33,269 bases of DNA from the NCBI GenBank assembly GCA_030535915.1, contig JAUNQZ010000005.1, positions 1 to 33,269 of the forward strand. The letters are read 5' to 3'. This document shows positions 7,543 to 13,885 of the stretch, in pieces. Both the position numbers and the translations under genes were made by a program. The stretch comes from a bacterium. Its GTDB lineage: Bacteria > Verrucomicrobiota > Kiritimatiellia > RFP12 > DVOR01. Position 1 is the first letter of the stretch; each line of letters opens with the position of its first letter. A model generated the notes under the pieces. It saw only the letters and a list, made by a program, of their open reading frames with translations, was not told the origin of the DNA and ran no database searches.

Positions 7543-7947
7543 TTAGCTAAAACATTTGCGGAATGCAAGCGGCGGACGACAAGGCAAATGTGTTTTGGCA
7601 TTAATAAAAGCAAGATCCGTTGTTGCATCCATAAGTTTTTCACCTTTGGGGTTAATCAACTCATAACGAAAACGAATGCGAGAACGAACGGGTTCTTCAA
7701 CATAGACATGAATGGTGATGAGTTCATCATAAAGTGCAGGCTTATGGTAAACTAAGTGTACATCCACAATGGGAGACATCACACCACTTGCTTCAAGATC
7801 AGCATAAGAACCTGCCCCCGAGGCACGAAGGGCTTCCCCTCGTGCCTCTTCAAGGAAGAGCAAATAGTTCCCATGCCAGCATACACCCATTTGGTCGGTT
7901 TCGGCATAACGGATGCGAACGTTGTGTTCGTAATGATAAGGAAGCAT
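7543..7947 (-). CDS. YbgC/FadM-type acyl-CoA thioesterase (hotdog fold)
   Basis: This 134-aa protein is the normal size for single-domain 4HBT thioesterases. The active-site motif DQMGVCWHGNYLLFLEEAR starts at D18 and is followed by a single hotdog domain (SPIVDVHLVYHKPALYDELITI). It hydrolyses an acyl-CoA or acyl-ACP thioester in the cytosol; YbgC homologues associate with the Tol-Pal envelope machinery, but no tol genes are nearby. The start at 7947 is set by SD GGAGG 7 nt upstream. The open frame continues 65 codons further upstream, but that part overlaps topA and is a shadow. The gene is 19 nt downstream of topA. Confidence 0.88.
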   Translation of the reverse strand: MLPYHYEHNVRIRYAETDQMGVCWHGNYLLFLEEARGEALRASGAGSYADLEASGVMSPIVDVHLVYHKPALYDELITIHVYVEEPVRSRIRFRYELINPKGEKLMDATTDLAFINAKTHLPCRPPLAFRKCFS

Positions 7948-7966: not shown

Positions 7967-10462
7967 TTACTTGGTTGTCTTTGTCTTTCGTGTCGTTTTG
8001 GTCGTTGTCGACTTTGCTTTACGTGGTGCACGGGTGGTGGATGTCTTACGAGGCGCTGCTTCAGGAATGTTGTAGGTCTGAGCAATGGTTTCGTAATTGG
8101 GGATTTCTTCGCGATAGCCACGAATGACACGCTTGAGGGCACTCATTTGACGTTCGCTTAGGAAGTGGCGTTGCTTTAATTGCGAGACGAGGCTATCAAT
8201 GAAGGATTTATCGTCGCGTGTGTCTTTACCACGTTTGAGTGGGGCGTGCCATTGGGTGAAGTTGTCGAAGAGGGCGAGAAGGGCTTTGGCTTCGGCTTCG
8301 TTTTCGGGGTGGTCGGCGAGTTGATTTTGCACGAGAAGATTCTTTAGTGTTGTCAACTGTCGGTCGGTGATGGTGCCACGGCGGTCGAATTGTTCTCGAA
8401 TGGAGGCGAGGAATTTGGTTTCCCAATCAGACAAGGGACGGGTTTCGGTGCGAATTTCAATTTGCTTGAAGAGTTCAAGGACTTCATCCTTTTCAACCAC
8501 GGGTGGAACGTTGTCAAAGAACTGTTCAATTTCGGGTCGGAGTTGTTCGCTATAGCGCAAGGTGAGATTGCTCAAGGTTTTGAGCTGGACCTTGGTGAGC
8601 GATTCTTTGTTGGCGCGGAGGGCGCACATTTCTTTGTAGAAGCCTTCGTCGTCCCAGGTGATGCGGTTGCCACTCTTACGCGGAGGATTCCATTCGGTAA
8701 TCTTCTTTAAGAGTTCCAAGAGTGCATCGGCACGCGATTGATTAGCGGTTAACCAGAGGGTTAACTTTTCGTAGAAGTCTGCAACTTCTGTTTCCCAGAA
8801 GGATTCACCCGCGGCAATTTTATCGAGGGCTTCTTCCATTTGTGCAGTAAATTCAATATTGATGAAGTCGGGCACTTCTGTTAACAAGAAATGGGTGACA
8901 TTCATTCCCATTTCGGTCGGGGTTAACACATGACCTTTACCGCTGACAACATATTCACGCGCCAATAAGGTTTTGATGGTAGAAGCATAGGTTGAGGGAC
9001 GACCGATGCCATTCTCTTCCAATGCTTTCACGAGGGAGGCTTCATTGTAACGTGCGGGCGGTTGTGTTTCCTTGGAGTCCAGCATGAGCTCTTGGCACTT
9101 TGCACGATCGCCACGATTCATCACAGGAAGCATCACGACATCGCCTTCTTCACTGTCATCGGTTTCTTTACGATTGGGTGACCAAACGTTGTAGAACCCT
9201 TTGAAGACGGGTTTTTGAGAAGAGACGGTGAAGCGGTATTGATGTTTGGTTGGCGTTGGCAATTGCTCAGGAACGAAGGTGAGGGTTGTGCGTTCGAGGC
9301 GTGCTGGCGCCATTTGGCTGGCCATGAAGCGTCGCCAAATGAGGTCGTAGAGTTTGACCATGGCGTCGTTTTCTTCATCGACGATGGCGGCGACGGTGAT
9401 GTCGGTGGGGCGAATCGGTTCGTGGGCTTCTTGTGCATTGCGAACTTTATTCCCATAAACATTTGGCGTTGCGGGAACGCATTCGGGTCCGAAGCGCTTT
9501 TGGATTTCTGCTTTGACGCTCTCACGAATGGTTTCGCTGACGGTGAAGCCGTCGGTACGCATATAGGTGATGTAACCATTTTCATAGAGGCTTTGGGCGA
9601 GGCGCATGGTGACTTCTGGGGTGAAGCCAAGGACATTTGCGGCGGCTTGTTGCAACGTCGATGTAATGAACGGCGCGGGGGGGCGTTTGGTAATGGTGCG
9701 CAGGTCGACATTGAAGAGTTCAAAGTCGCGCTGGGCGAGATCTTCGACATAGGCGCGGGCTTCGGCTTCGGTGGGGATGCCGTCAATTTCTTTGTCGTAG
9801 GCTTGGAAGCGTGGGGCAACGCCATCGATAGCGGCTAAACGCGTATCAAAGGTATGGATGCCTTTTTCAAGGCGTGCACCTAAAACCCAATAGGGCGTGG
9901 ATTGGAAGGCGTTCACGGCATCTTCACGATCGACAATTAAACGCAAGGCCACGGATTGTACGCGACCGGCACTCTTTGCGCCAGCGACGGAGGATTGTGT
10001 TAAACGCGAAATTTTAAAGCCGGAGAGGCGATCTTCGATGCGACGTGCTTGTTGGGCATCGACGAGATGTTGGTCAATCTTAGAGGGATGCTCAATAGCT
10101 GCCAAAACGGCGGTTTTGGTAATTTCGTTGTAACGCACACGGAAGAATTCGCGTTCGCCTTGGAGATCTTTGAGAACTTCATACAAGTGCCATGCGATGC
10201 TTTCGCCTTCGCGGTCAGGGTCGCTGGCGAGGAAGATTTTTTTGGCTTTGGCGGCGGCTTTGCGTAAATCAGCGACGATTTTCTTTTTGTCGGCGGGAAT
10301 TTCATACGTCGGCATGAAGTGGTTGGAGACATCGACCGATAAACGATATTTATGTAAATCACGAATATGTCCAACCGATGCCATGACCACATAGTCATCA
10401 GGTAAAAAACTCGAAATCTTTCTTGCCTTACTCGGCGATTCTACAATAACAAGTGAACGCAT
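7967..10462 (-). CDS. topA: DNA topoisomerase I with non-standard C-terminal repeats
   Basis: This is an 831-aa type IA topoisomerase, which relaxes negative supercoils. The Toprim domain carries DPDREGESIAWH at about 81-92, and catalytic Tyr300 lies in ITYMRTDG. GRPSTYAS near 487 and the gate domains follow. After about residue 580 the usual Cys4 zinc ribbons are absent. Instead there are three diverged repeats of about 57-61 residues (about 581-641, 660-716, 727-787), each ending in a pattern like LT..QL.TL, ITDRQLTTLK or LSERQMSALK. A Thr/Lys/Arg-rich tail closes the protein. Start 10462 is chosen because GGAGG lies 5 nt upstream; an upstream start at 10474 would overlap the SD. It heads a six-gene operon. 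Confidence 0.95.
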   Translation of the reverse strand: MRSLVIVESPSKARKISSFLPDDYVVMASVGHIRDLHKYRLSVDVSNHFMPTYEIPADKKKIVADLRKAAAKAKKIFLASDPDREGESIAWHLYEVLKDLQGEREFFRVRYNEITKTAVLAAIEHPSKIDQHLVDAQQARRIEDRLSGFKISRLTQSSVAGAKSAGRVQSVALRLIVDREDAVNAFQSTPYWVLGARLEKGIHTFDTRLAAIDGVAPRFQAYDKEIDGIPTEAEARAYVEDLAQRDFELFNVDLRTITKRPPAPFITSTLQQAAANVLGFTPEVTMRLAQSLYENGYITYMRTDGFTVSETIRESVKAEIQKRFGPECVPATPNVYGNKVRNAQEAHEPIRPTDITVAAIVDEENDAMVKLYDLIWRRFMASQMAPARLERTTLTFVPEQLPTPTKHQYRFTVSSQKPVFKGFYNVWSPNRKETDDSEEGDVVMLPVMNRGDRAKCQELMLDSKETQPPARYNEASLVKALEENGIGRPSTYASTIKTLLAREYVVSGKGHVLTPTEMGMNVTHFLLTEVPDFINIEFTAQMEEALDKIAAGESFWETEVADFYEKLTLWLTANQSRADALLELLKKITEWNPPRKSGNRITWDDEGFYKEMCALRANKESLTKVQLKTLSNLTLRYSEQLRPEIEQFFDNVPPVVEKDEVLELFKQIEIRTETRPLSDWETKFLASIREQFDRRGTITDRQLTTLKNLLVQNQLADHPENEAEAKALLALFDNFTQWHAPLKRGKDTRDDKSFIDSLVSQLKQRHFLSERQMSALKRVIRGYREEIPNYETIAQTYNIPEAAPRKTSTTRAPRKAKSTTTKTTRKTKTTK

Positions 10463-10566
10463 ACCGTCCTCCATTTGATTGGCTCCGTTGAGCGCGATTG
10501 ATTGAACACTTTATTGATAGCATCTTAAAGGGAGGATTGGCAACACTTTTTTTTGTCTGCTTCTGC

Positions 10567-10583
10567 CTATACTATAAGTATAG
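10567..10583. promoter_or_regulatory. Palindrome in the topA-mfd divergent spacer
   Basis: CTATACT (10567-10573), the spacer ATA and AGTATAG (10577-10583) form a perfect 7-bp inverted repeat in the 204-bp spacer between the divergent topA and mfd genes. It is operator-like, and TATACT inside it could also serve as a -10 element. No convincing -35 was found. Function is inferred only from position. Confidence 0.35.
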
Positions 10584-10649
10584 ATTTTTTTTGCGGACGT
10601 TTAAAAGCGCGAAAAGGTGAAAAAAGTTGCGCACAGGAGGGTGCGTTTT

Positions 10650-10658
10650 TGTTATGCT
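10650..10658 (+). promoter_or_regulatory. Extended -10 element of mfd
   Basis: TGTTATGCT matches the extended -10 pattern TGnTATxxT and ends 8 nt before the mfd ATG at 10667. Transcription would begin at or next to the start codon, implying a leaderless mRNA. No SD lies at a usable distance before this ATG. No good -35 is visible (TTGCGC lies 20 nt upstream). Confidence 0.5.
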
Positions 10659-10666
10659 ATTTCAAG

Positions 10667-13600
10667 ATGAAACAGTTGAGTGAGATTGCCTTTAAGCTGA
10701 CACGTCTCTTTGCAGGCCTTTTGCCGAGACGTGAGGGTCCCTTTGCAATCGGTGATATTCCGCTGCCGATGGCGGTTGTCACGGCGGACCTTTTAGGGGA
10801 AGGTCGAAGCTTGCTGATTTGTCCAACGCCTGAGCTCGCAGAACAAGCCTTTGCCGATGCGTCGCAATTGCTCCCAAAGACAGCGCTTTACTTTTTAGCC
10901 TCGGCGGATGATGAGGCGACCTTGCTCACTGGTGAACGCGCAGTGCAAGCACGTGCGATTCAAAGGGCAACGGGGCATGGCCTCATCATCACTTCGATTC
11001 ATGCGCTTTTACAACCGGTGCCCGAGGCGCAAGCGCTGGAAGCGGCGACACTGACCTTAACGCTAGAGGGCGAAACGCCGTTTGATTCGCTCGCAGAACA
11101 ACTCACAACAATGGGTTATGAACGCGTAGAGCTCGTGGTTGAGCCGCTCTCGTTTGCAATTCGCGGGGGGATTGTTGACCTTTGGCCAGCCGGTGCATCA
11201 CAGCCGATGCGTGTGGAATTTTTTGGCGATACGATTGATCGCATCAAAGCCTTTGACCCTGCAACGCAATGTTCGGTTGCAACGTTAGAAGCGGTGACGA
11301 TTCCGCCGACGCCAATGGCGAAAATCAAAACGTTCCAATTGTTGCCAACGCTTGTTGATGCGACGGTTTTGGTTTATGATACCCCCGCGATTGAGGCAAC
11401 GCTTGCACAGTTGCGGTCGCTCTCTTCGAAACAAACCAATGCGGAATGGTTGCGTGCGCACTTAGCGAAACATCCACATTTTGTTTGTTGGTCGGGCGAG
11501 CCGCTCGTTGAAGGTATCCCGTCGGTCGCACTTGCGGTTGATCCCTTAGACCACACGATTCAAATCGATGCAGATGTGCCGAAACAGCTTCACCCAGAAG
11601 CTTATTTACACCTTCGCAAACAAGCACTGACGCAGCTCGATGAGCGTTCGCGAAAAGGGGAAACCATCATTCTCTGTGCGGAATCTGCGGCGGCATGTGA
11701 ATTGCTTTCTCATGACCTGCCACCAGAGACAAAAATCCATCTTTTGCAGAGCACGTTGAGTCAAGGGTTTATCATTCGGAACCTTAAATTAACGGTTGTA
11801 ACGCAACGCGACCTTTATCCTACAAAACGTTCGCATCGCCCCTCTCAACGTCAACACAAATCGATTGCAGGTCAACGACTGGAGTATGCTTTTGATGTTG
11901 AACCCGGCGAACTTGTCGTTCATCTCGAGCATGGAATTGGTCGCTTTTTAGGGCTCGGTGAAATTGAGTTCGGCGAGACGCGTTCGGAAGTTTTTACGCT
12001 GGAATATGCCGATGGTGTAAGGTTGCATGTTCCAACCACGCATGCACATCTCCTTTCGCGTTATATCGGTCCGCATGGCAAAAAGGCAAAACTCCATAAG
12101 CTTGATAGTAAACGTTGGAGAAAAGAACGTGATGCAGCGCAACATGCGATTGAAGACCTCGCCGCAGGATTGTTGGAAACACAAGCACGTCGACGCGTAC
12201 TGAGTGGATTCGCATTTGATTTAAGCAGTCCGTGGATTAAAGAATTTGAAGCGCTTTTCCCTTGGCACGAAACGCAGGATCAGTTGCGTGCGATGGAAGA
12301 CATTAAGAACGATATGTCAACGCCGATTGCCATGGATCGTCTCCTGTGTGGTGATGCGGGATATGGCAAGACAGAACTTGCAATGCGTGCGGCATTTATT
12401 GCTGTGTGTAATCATAAACAAGTCGTTCTGCTCGCGCCAACAACAGTTTTGGCGGAACAACATTACGCGACGTTTTGTGATCGTATGGCTGCATTTCCCA
12501 TTCGGATTGAAGTGCTTTCGCGATTTCGCACCAAGCATCAACGCGCGCTCACCCGTGCAGCCGCAGCGAAGGGAAAGGTTGACATTCTCATTGGAACACA
12601 TGCGATTCTTACAGAGAATATTCCCTTTAAGGATTTAGGATTACTGATTATTGATGAAGAGCAACGCTTTGGCGTCGTTCATAAAGAACAACTCAAACAA
12701 CTTCGAGCGTTGGTCGATGTGCTGACCATGAGTGCAACGCCAATTCCTCGTACGCTTTATCTTTCGTTAACGGGAGCGCGGGATCTTTCCTTAATTCAAA
12801 CGCCGCCACAAAATCGTTTGCCGGTAGAGACGATTTTGCACAATGATACAGATGCGATTCTTATGAAAGCGATTCAAGATGAAATCGCTCGCGGTGGACA
12901 AGTTTATTATTTATACAATCGCGTGCAAACCATCGGTCGCGTCTATCAGCGCATAAAATCTTTACTTCCAGAGGCGCGTGTCTTAATTGGTCACGGACAA
13001 ATGTCTCCTAAAGAACTCGCGCATACAATGCAAGCCTTTGAACGTGGAGAAGCAGATGTCCTGCTCTGTACAACGATTGTTGAGAGTGGGATTGATATTC
13101 CACGCGCGAATACCATTTTGATTGATCGTGCGGATCGTTTTGGACTTGCAGATTTGTATCAATTACGAGGGCGTGTTGGACGATCGGGCGTGAAAGCCTT
13201 TGCGTATCTTTTGTTGCCGACAGATATTGTTCTCGATAAAGATTCGCGTCAACGTTTGCAAGCATTAAAGCGTCACAGTGGGTTAGGGGCAGGTTATGCA
13301 ATTGCATTGCGAGATCTTGAAATTCGTGGTTCGGGAAATCTACTCGGTGCAGCGCAAAGTGGACATATCGCGGCGATTGGCTTTGGGTTGTATTGCCAAC
13401 TGCTTCGTCGGACCGTTGCGCGTCTCAAAGGCGATCCAATGGTGGGATTGATTGATACTGAAATCACCCTTGAATTTCTCAATACCTCTCCAGGCGCAAT
13501 GGGCGCAAATGCGGCGGCGATTCCTTACCATTATATCGAGGATGAATCGCAACGCATGAATCTCTATCGTCGCATGGCAGAAGCAACGAATCTTGCAGAA

Positions 13601-13885
13601 TTGCGCGAGCTTCGCACAGAAATGATGGATCGTTATGGAACATTGCCTCCACCTGCAGAACGAACCTTTAAAGTTGCAATGCTTCGTGTGAATGCATCAA
13701 TGCGTGATGTGATTAAAATTCACGCAACGCCAACACATGTTTCACTTTATGCACGACTCAACCATGCAGTCATGCCACACTTCGCAAATCGGCCATTGCC
13801 AGAAGAAAAAACGGAAGATGAACTTCTCGCGTGGATTGCGCGTCTTATTGAAAAGCTTCCGCTTCGGAGTAGAATGCACGGGTAA
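10667..13885 (+). CDS. mfd: Transcription-repair coupling factor Mfd
   Basis: This 1072-aa ATP-dependent translocase removes stalled RNA polymerase and recruits UvrA. The UvrB-like N-terminal part includes GYERVELVVEPLSFAIRGGI at about 150-170. The RNA-polymerase interaction domain lies at about 410-475 (PGELVVHLEHGIGRFLGLGE). The RecG-like helicase has Walker A GDAGYGKTE near 562, DEEQ near 663, and MSATPIPRTL. The TRCF C-terminal domain (YHYIEDESQRMNLYRRMAEA) completes the protein. The frame stays open upstream to 10553, but those 38 residues are not family-like, so the ATG at 10667 is chosen. The 3' end overlaps the convergent hemW gene by 41 nt. Confidence 0.95.
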   Translation: MKQLSEIAFKLTRLFAGLLPRREGPFAIGDIPLPMAVVTADLLGEGRSLLICPTPELAEQAFADASQLLPKTALYFLASADDEATLLTGERAVQARAIQRATGHGLIITSIHALLQPVPEAQALEAATLTLTLEGETPFDSLAEQLTTMGYERVELVVEPLSFAIRGGIVDLWPAGASQPMRVEFFGDTIDRIKAFDPATQCSVATLEAVTIPPTPMAKIKTFQLLPTLVDATVLVYDTPAIEATLAQLRSLSSKQTNAEWLRAHLAKHPHFVCWSGEPLVEGIPSVALAVDPLDHTIQIDADVPKQLHPEAYLHLRKQALTQLDERSRKGETIILCAESAAACELLSHDLPPETKIHLLQSTLSQGFIIRNLKLTVVTQRDLYPTKRSHRPSQRQHKSIAGQRLEYAFDVEPGELVVHLEHGIGRFLGLGEIEFGETRSEVFTLEYADGVRLHVPTTHAHLLSRYIGPHGKKAKLHKLDSKRWRKERDAAQHAIEDLAAGLLETQARRRVLSGFAFDLSSPWIKEFEALFPWHETQDQLRAMEDIKNDMSTPIAMDRLLCGDAGYGKTELAMRAAFIAVCNHKQVVLLAPTTVLAEQHYATFCDRMAAFPIRIEVLSRFRTKHQRALTRAAAAKGKVDILIGTHAILTENIPFKDLGLLIIDEEQRFGVVHKEQLKQLRALVDVLTMSATPIPRTLYLSLTGARDLSLIQTPPQNRLPVETILHNDTDAILMKAIQDEIARGGQVYYLYNRVQTIGRVYQRIKSLLPEARVLIGHGQMSPKELAHTMQAFERGEADVLLCTTIVESGIDIPRANTILIDRADRFGLADLYQLRGRVGRSGVKAFAYLLLPTDIVLDKDSRQRLQALKRHSGLGAGYAIALRDLEIRGSGNLLGAAQSGHIAAIGFGLYCQLLRRTVARLKGDPMVGLIDTEITLEFLNTSPGAMGANAAAIPYHYIEDESQRMNLYRRMAEATNLAELRELRTEMMDRYGTLPPPAERTFKVAMLRVNASMRDVIKIHATPTHVSLYARLNHAVMPHFANRPLPEEKTEDELLAWIARLIEKLPLRSRMHG

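Follow-up and report, generated by a model that had tools for sequence, protein, structure and literature searches.

We asked what a bacterial topoisomerase I carries behind its catalytic core when the zinc ribbons typical of many TopA proteins are missing, and how such an enzyme would hold its DNA. The gene in question lies in a window of 33,269 nucleotides, the whole stretch of DNA that was analysed, from a Kiritimatiellia genome. Its features are the following, where the i-E values of the three repeats come from a model that itself contains rows of the window:

7967..10474, minus strand: topA, type IA DNA topoisomerase I, 835 aa (Pfam, NCBIfam TIGR01051, Foldseek)
8759..10453, minus strand: catalytic core, aa 8-572 (PF01751, PF01131, TIGR01051)
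8540..8722, minus strand: repeat 1, aa 585-645 (i-E 3e-22; helix, hairpin E599-601/E605-607 and helices in the predicted model)
8315..8485, minus strand: repeat 2, aa ~664-720, degenerate, with a recognisable core at aa 686-716 (8327-8419) (i-E 1e-8; whole-genome profile 8.5e-6)
8096..8281, minus strand: repeat 3, aa 732-793 (i-E 1e-26; hairpin E746-748/E751-753 in the predicted model; phrog_21015 match)
7970..8062, minus strand: Thr/Lys/Arg tail, aa ~805-835, mostly predicted disordered (pLDDT <50 for aa 809-835; net charge after repeat 3, +9)

The protein belongs to the bacterial type I DNA topoisomerases (TopA). TIGR01051 scores 620.9 bits against a cut-off of 456.4 and spans aa 8-572, the active-site motif YMRTD (aa 304-308) is invariant in 29 of 29 aligned TopA rows, and Foldseek places chains of bacterial topoisomerase I at ranks 1-25 of the PDB matches to the window TopA model (E 3e-53 to 1e-47; 4e-53 for 1cy0). 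The Toprim motif DPDREGE lies at aa 85-91, and Toprim (aa 8-118) and the type IA core (aa 133-562) are the only Pfam families over cut-off. The Foldseek alignments span 570-597 columns, roughly what the core alone would fill, and this is so even where the target is full-length E. coli TopA (4rul); no Pfam or NCBIfam model passes its curated cut-off within aa 585-835; positions 7967-8722 of the minus strand correspond exactly to aa 585 to the stop. A phage family labelled 'unknown function', phrog_13226, matches the type IA core (E 3e-131, aa 6-585). As for the neighbours, topA stands head to head with mfd (10553-13885, plus strand; UvrB_inter, CarD_TRCF_RID, DEAD, Helicase_C and TRCF) and is closely followed by an ORF at 7543-7947 on the minus strand, presumably thioesterase-like, with a ribosome-binding-like AAGGAGG before its ATG at 7947.

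The original prediction described three diverged repeats of about 60 residues after the type IA core. Self-alignment of the window TopA alone agrees for pairs 1-3 and 2-3, which beat 2000 of 2000 shuffles; pair 1-2 is weak, with 1935 of 2000 shuffles beaten and 65 equally good. Profiles taken across repeats point the same way: a model of the repeat 3 columns of 23 proteins, window TopA being one of them, detects repeats 1 and 2 of window TopA at i-E 1e-14 and 5.3e-9, respectively, and a model of the repeat 1 columns finds window repeat 3 at i-E 1.9e-18. When repeats 1 and 3 were modelled jointly, exactly three matches were obtained in 34 of the 37 proteins or fragments scored; the exceptions are L067, with four stretches, and L068 and L070, with two each, both cut by a contig end. 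The consensus of the repeat is approximately L..LL..V..W.PP..RGKRTYDD..F..SL..Q....K.LS.RQ..AL.K...RY..QIP, and the predicted W/LF start, LS/IT..RQ close and Thr/Lys/Arg tail were all recovered. The number of repeats and their start and close pattern therefore stand, but repeat 2 is no full copy in the window, where it is degenerate and modelled without a hairpin; the module has diverged in window TopA, and of its repeat 2 the second half alone survives. All three copies are full length in cleaner relatives, for example L041.

Structure prediction for the C-terminus of L041 (AlphaFold, alignment of 27 rows, pLDDT 88.8, pTM 0.53) gives one confident unit per repeat, three in all, each predicted as a helix, two short strands forming a hairpin, and three helices. 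In the model of full-length window TopA (29 rows, pLDDT 83.6) the hairpin is kept in repeats 1 and 3, and repeat 2, which lacks it, has a pLDDT of 63-76. Foldseek found no PDB match to the L041-type module at E<=0.001 (best E 1.8, three-repeat model); against a viral library the best E was 0.24, and a 58-aa phage protein stood at rank 26 (TMt 0.75, prob 0.66, E 4). The best VIA-align match, Legionella LnaB (Z 5.7, 68 residues, rmsd 3.2), lies under the level at which the tool considers a match meaningful. With three predicted repeats rather than a single unit as the query, such an absence of structural matches does not amount to proof of a new fold.

Two major types of C-terminal repeat are named in parts of the bacterial TopA surveys PMC9369019 and PMC10969213. 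Topo_C_ZnRpt (PF01396), found in E. coli topoisomerase I, likewise consists of tandem small domains at the same place after the type IA core. It is, according to a passage of PMC10969213, a four-Cys, four-stranded beta ribbon, whereas the units described here are Cys-pair-free, predicted to be helical with one hairpin, and about 65 residues long. The C-terminal region of window TopA is without any CxxC pair, and PF01396 has no match in the protein or in its assembly (91% complete), in agreement with the original prediction. That the repeats stand instead of zinc ribbons holds for the window and fails for sister families, where a ribbon follows the repeats. The second type, Topo_C_Rpt (PF13368) of mycobacterial topoisomerase I, also forms Cys-free tandem repeats after the core, and is described in parts of PMC9369019 and PMC10969213 as a four-stranded sheet with a GR(F/Y)GPY signature. 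PF13368 matches neither window TopA nor any of 194 genomes, whereas 5 of 14 controls were positive, and the models contain predicted helices and at most one hairpin per repeat in place of the four-stranded sheet and one helix of Topo_C_Rpt. A lineage-specific change of TopA C-terminal parts is also known from Chlamydia trachomatis, whose phylum is related to that of the window and whose TopA carries SWIB. There it is one domain of a curated family behind kept zinc fingers, as given in part of PMC12445093, and no profile similarity to it exists here: hhalign of the repeat module against SWIB gives a Prob of 0.4%, and PF02201 (SWIB/MDM2), over cut-off in 15 of 96 genomes, always lies in frames of 94-161 residues and never in a topA-sized one. 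SWIB/MDM2 chains are not among the structural matches listed by Foldseek and VIA-align, lists that cannot exclude a SWIB fold. The small SWIB proteins themselves occur in part of the phylum, for instance in G070, G068, G075 and G130.

Other known families fared no better. No module examined singly (window, L039 and 20 more) passed a Pfam cut-off, the best score below it being that of DUF7853 (PF25251), 24.9 bits against 27. Six of 23 modules have a DUF7853 match at E<=1, with 17.5-24.9 bits in those of L016, L038, L030 and L003, all near the helix 2-3 stretch; the family may be a further distant relative of the repeat. NCBIfam gave scattered weak matches only (best E 4e-4, in 1 of 27 modules), and PDB sequences gave none at E<=0.1. 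Profile and structure searches thus assigned the region to no known topoisomerase C-terminal domain, and we rejected the zinc ribbon, Topo_C_Rpt and SWIB as identities of the module on the absent PF01396 and PF13368 matches, the lack of CxxC and the SWIB Prob. The original interpretation is in this respect partly supported, as an alternative and poorly characterised C-terminal module. No description of it was found in the literature searched, and Verrucomicrobia, Lentisphaerae, Kiritimatiellae and PVC go unmentioned in the main text of the survey PMC9369019.

How widespread is this module? With the 226-residue C-terminus of the window protein as query, 124 of the 194 genomes sampled from the phylum gave a match; with a 32-row profile (E<=0.01) it was 155 of 240. 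Copy numbers among the 155, counted as matches per genome with their location in topA taken from the matches listed, are three in 145, four in 7, two in 1 and one in 2. Where four were found, they lie in one frame of 917-941 residues in G155, G177 and G201 (placed by coordinates; one of G177's spans two stops) and as four pieces in a single frame of 1007 in G035, and in G076, G106 and G194 the fourth match is elsewhere than the other three. A pattern-limited scan provided 30 named loci, which by title belong to Kiritimatiellae/-ia (9), Verrucomicrobia (6), 'bacterium' (4), Lentisphaerae (3), PVC group (3), Syntrophomonadaceae (2, both falling inside the core tree), Spartobacteria (1), Akkermansia (1) and Victivallis (1). 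No relative of the module was obtained in a single-sequence scan of genome contigs or in viral contigs. Two places away from topA deserve mention. In G106, a single repeat copy (L134, 1438-1842; E 2e-15) occupies a 134-residue frame about 12 kb from topA, in which the match is preceded by no ATG, GTG or TTG start; it may represent a fragment or a protein of its own. In G250, a 138-residue ORF (L127, 1306-1722, minus strand) near a protein-kinase-like ORF, so judged by eye, has a weak repeat match (E 0.005).

The relatives also differ in what accompanies the repeats. A set of 29 genomes was chosen by hand, many for their lack of repeats; 7 of the 29, from other families (f42, f43, f45), have repeats, and in 18 (L085-L102) the topoisomerase shares no more than 27-32% identity with window TopA where the two match, ends in a different C-terminus and shows no repeat match. 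Two lineages of topoisomerase seem to be in use within the phylum. G062 combines the same core (46% identity) with three zinc-ribbon matches and lacks the repeat, G019 has a shortened topA frame of 727 residues, and in G001 and G004, of the window's genus (assemblies 88% and 93% complete), window TopA found no match at E<=0.001. In six genomes (G131, G137, G162, G212, G223, G234) a zinc-ribbon match comes after the repeats, within 13-34 bases of them, five of these being read as protein and G212 by coordinates only; most other PF01396 matches lie elsewhere in the genomes. Three architectures can thus be distinguished: ribbons only (L079), three repeats with one terminal ribbon (L076, L078, L080, L081, L103) and repeats only, and in G135 (L104) repeats and a basic tail occur without a ribbon. 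A tree of the core with 34 rows unites L104, the five rows that have repeats plus a ribbon, and the ribbons-only row on one branch (support 98/97); the branch leading to the window row is long (1.99). Because repeat-plus-ribbon and ribbons-only relatives exist, the comparison of sequences suggests a stepwise replacement of ribbons by repeats. The tree is unrooted and therefore does not give the direction of this series; that it ran from ribbon to repeat is what we infer.

What would the repeats do? Position counts were made on 32 aligned repeats, of which 30 were picked from 12 of the 30 named loci, repeat 2 being left out in six of those 12, and 2 are the window's. Lys or Arg occupies hairpin positions 17, 19 and 20 in 69%, 94% and 88% of the 32, and third-helix positions 44, 51 and 55 in 81%, 91% and 81%; by simple arithmetic (100 degrees per residue) the latter three fall within about 40 degrees of one helix face. 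D24, an acidic residue, is invariant, and the conserved aromatics W11, Y22, F27 and Y56 may form the core rather than stack on bases. Since the repeat region as a whole carries a net charge anywhere from -6 to +12 across 33 rows, with +1 in the window, the case for binding rests on these local basic positions, which are partly lost in window repeat 1 (V at position 44 and N at 51, read from the sequence). C-terminal ribbons and Topo_C_Rpt bind DNA according to parts of PMC9369019, and parts of PMC4678816 and PMC7192597 say the same of the C-terminal repeats of bacterial TopA; the present repeats occupy the same place and therefore most likely do likewise. Judged from sequence conservation, they probably bind nucleic acid through the hairpin and the basic helix stripe, and window TopA probably grips DNA with a tool other than zinc ribbons. 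We propose that next to the catalytic toroid the R-G-K-R of each hairpin and the stripe R44/K51/R55 would touch the phosphates of DNA that is single-stranded or melted, and that the repeats could so provide the hold that E. coli TopA owes to its zinc ribbons. In window TopA, whose repeat 2 has lost its hairpin, the Lys/Arg tail would add unspecific affinity. This basic tail (+9) resembles the lysine repeats of actinobacterial TopA, Lys-rich stretches that part of PMC7398561 says confer high processivity. Altogether, we read the TopA C-terminus as a lineage-specific substrate-binding module of three unrecognised domains of about 65 residues that took over from zinc ribbons, with a probability of roughly 0.58; a third kind of TopA C-terminal module is our best reading.

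Alternatively, the repeats might dock RNA polymerase or another protein and leave DNA binding to the basic tail. We consider this unlikely, although several points favour it: helical repeats often dock proteins, the present ones are not strongly basic overall, and mfd, head to head with topA, encodes a CarD/TRCF RID domain, which binds RNA polymerase. Part of PMC9369019 also reports that the zinc region of E. coli TopA binds RNA polymerase. However, no partner was found, the basic positions rank among the best conserved, and the mfd neighbour is not general, topA having beside it a DprA-like ORF in L019 and a tyrosine-recombinase-like ORF in L017 and L039 (by eye). It is rather improbable that the repeats are mainly structural, as a spacer packing on the toroid or by dimerising the enzyme: a copy number of mostly three would suit a fixed architecture, and the arrangement of units is uncertain in the L041 model (pTM 0.53), but the basic positions are conserved, and the modules of the window's genus share 37-44% identity with that of the window, compared with 48-61% in whole-protein matches, as one would rather expect of an appended module than of one in contact with the core. 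Very improbable, and largely refuted, is a diverged known domain, be it a Cys-less zinc ribbon (Cys-less degenerate ribbons exist in E. coli, according to part of PMC9369019), Topo_C_Rpt or the SWIB in which chlamydial TopA ends (part of PMC12445093) and which by eye shares a loose pattern of helix, basic stretch, D-D and helix, given the family searches above, a predicted fold that is mainly helical, and ribbons and repeats side by side in one protein.

A further question is where the repeats came from. PHROGs searches with 23 modules (E<=0.1) matched phrog_21015 in 23 (best 1.5e-13), phrog_27072 in 23 and phrog_4046 in 18, and with 29 full-length proteins (E<=0.001) in 25, 16 and 4, respectively; window repeat 3 matches phrog_21015 at aa 755-789 (E 5e-5). 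The shared part, where shown, is the helix 2-3 stretch, which the repeats thus have in common with phage helical-hairpin proteins: phrog_21015 (XacN1 ORF059) and phrog_4046 (Pseudomonas phage DP1 gp13, DUF6011) share the helix 2-turn-helix 3 stretch F..SL..Q...LS.RQ..A, but only about 40 residues are common, in a single copy in the proteins read and in different surroundings. In the reverse search, with E given per whole phage genome, the repeat profile found DP1 gp13 (7.2e-5) and two places in Xanthomonas phage XacN1 (7.4e-5); the phage matches cover profile positions ~22-65 of 67, so that helix 1 and the basic hairpin are not fully spanned. In DP1 gp13 and two relatives the stretch is preceded by Cys pairs and followed by the DUF6011 Cys domain, a setting that we count in favour of the substrate-binding reading; for DUF6011 no paper was found in the literature searched. 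Aligned by hhalign with three phage proteins, the A7 alignment gives Prob 60% and E 8.5e-5 over 36 columns, with weaker values for single members. DP1 gp13 and the XacN1 protein score above all 1892 shuffles scored (pooled for these two), and tabernarius and CcrBL10 are equalled by one shuffle each (945 and 983 scored). Run over whole genomes, phrog_21015 is weak: at E<=1 it matches 17 of 20 relatives, with a best value of 0.0016 and in part at places other than topA, and also 2 of 14 controls. From the shuffles and the whole genomes, the link, one of sequence, is therefore solid for the family and weak for single members. Viral contigs contained one relative of the XacN1 protein, and a DNA pattern search gave none. 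When one repeat was searched by tblastn in phages and plasmids, the matches were weak throughout (best E 2 and 0.2), and those in phiYS40 (translated), Bacteriophage sp. and Efs 1-1-1 (ORF lists) were judged to be chance. A tentative scenario is that the repeat would be a new nucleic-acid-binding fold with a helix pair common to phage proteins, acquired and triplicated in a Kiritimatiellae/Lentisphaerae-type ancestor, where it might have displaced the zinc ribbons of a topoisomerase that is an essential housekeeping enzyme and left zinc-plus-repeat intermediates still living.

The C-terminal part of TopA helps the enzyme to find and hold negatively supercoiled DNA. A third, mostly helical type of repeat, widespread in the phylum, would, if true, mean that this part can be swapped wholesale. 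The relatives would then offer a natural series of intermediates in which to test the role of the zinc ribbons, and the repeats a handle on the phage motif.
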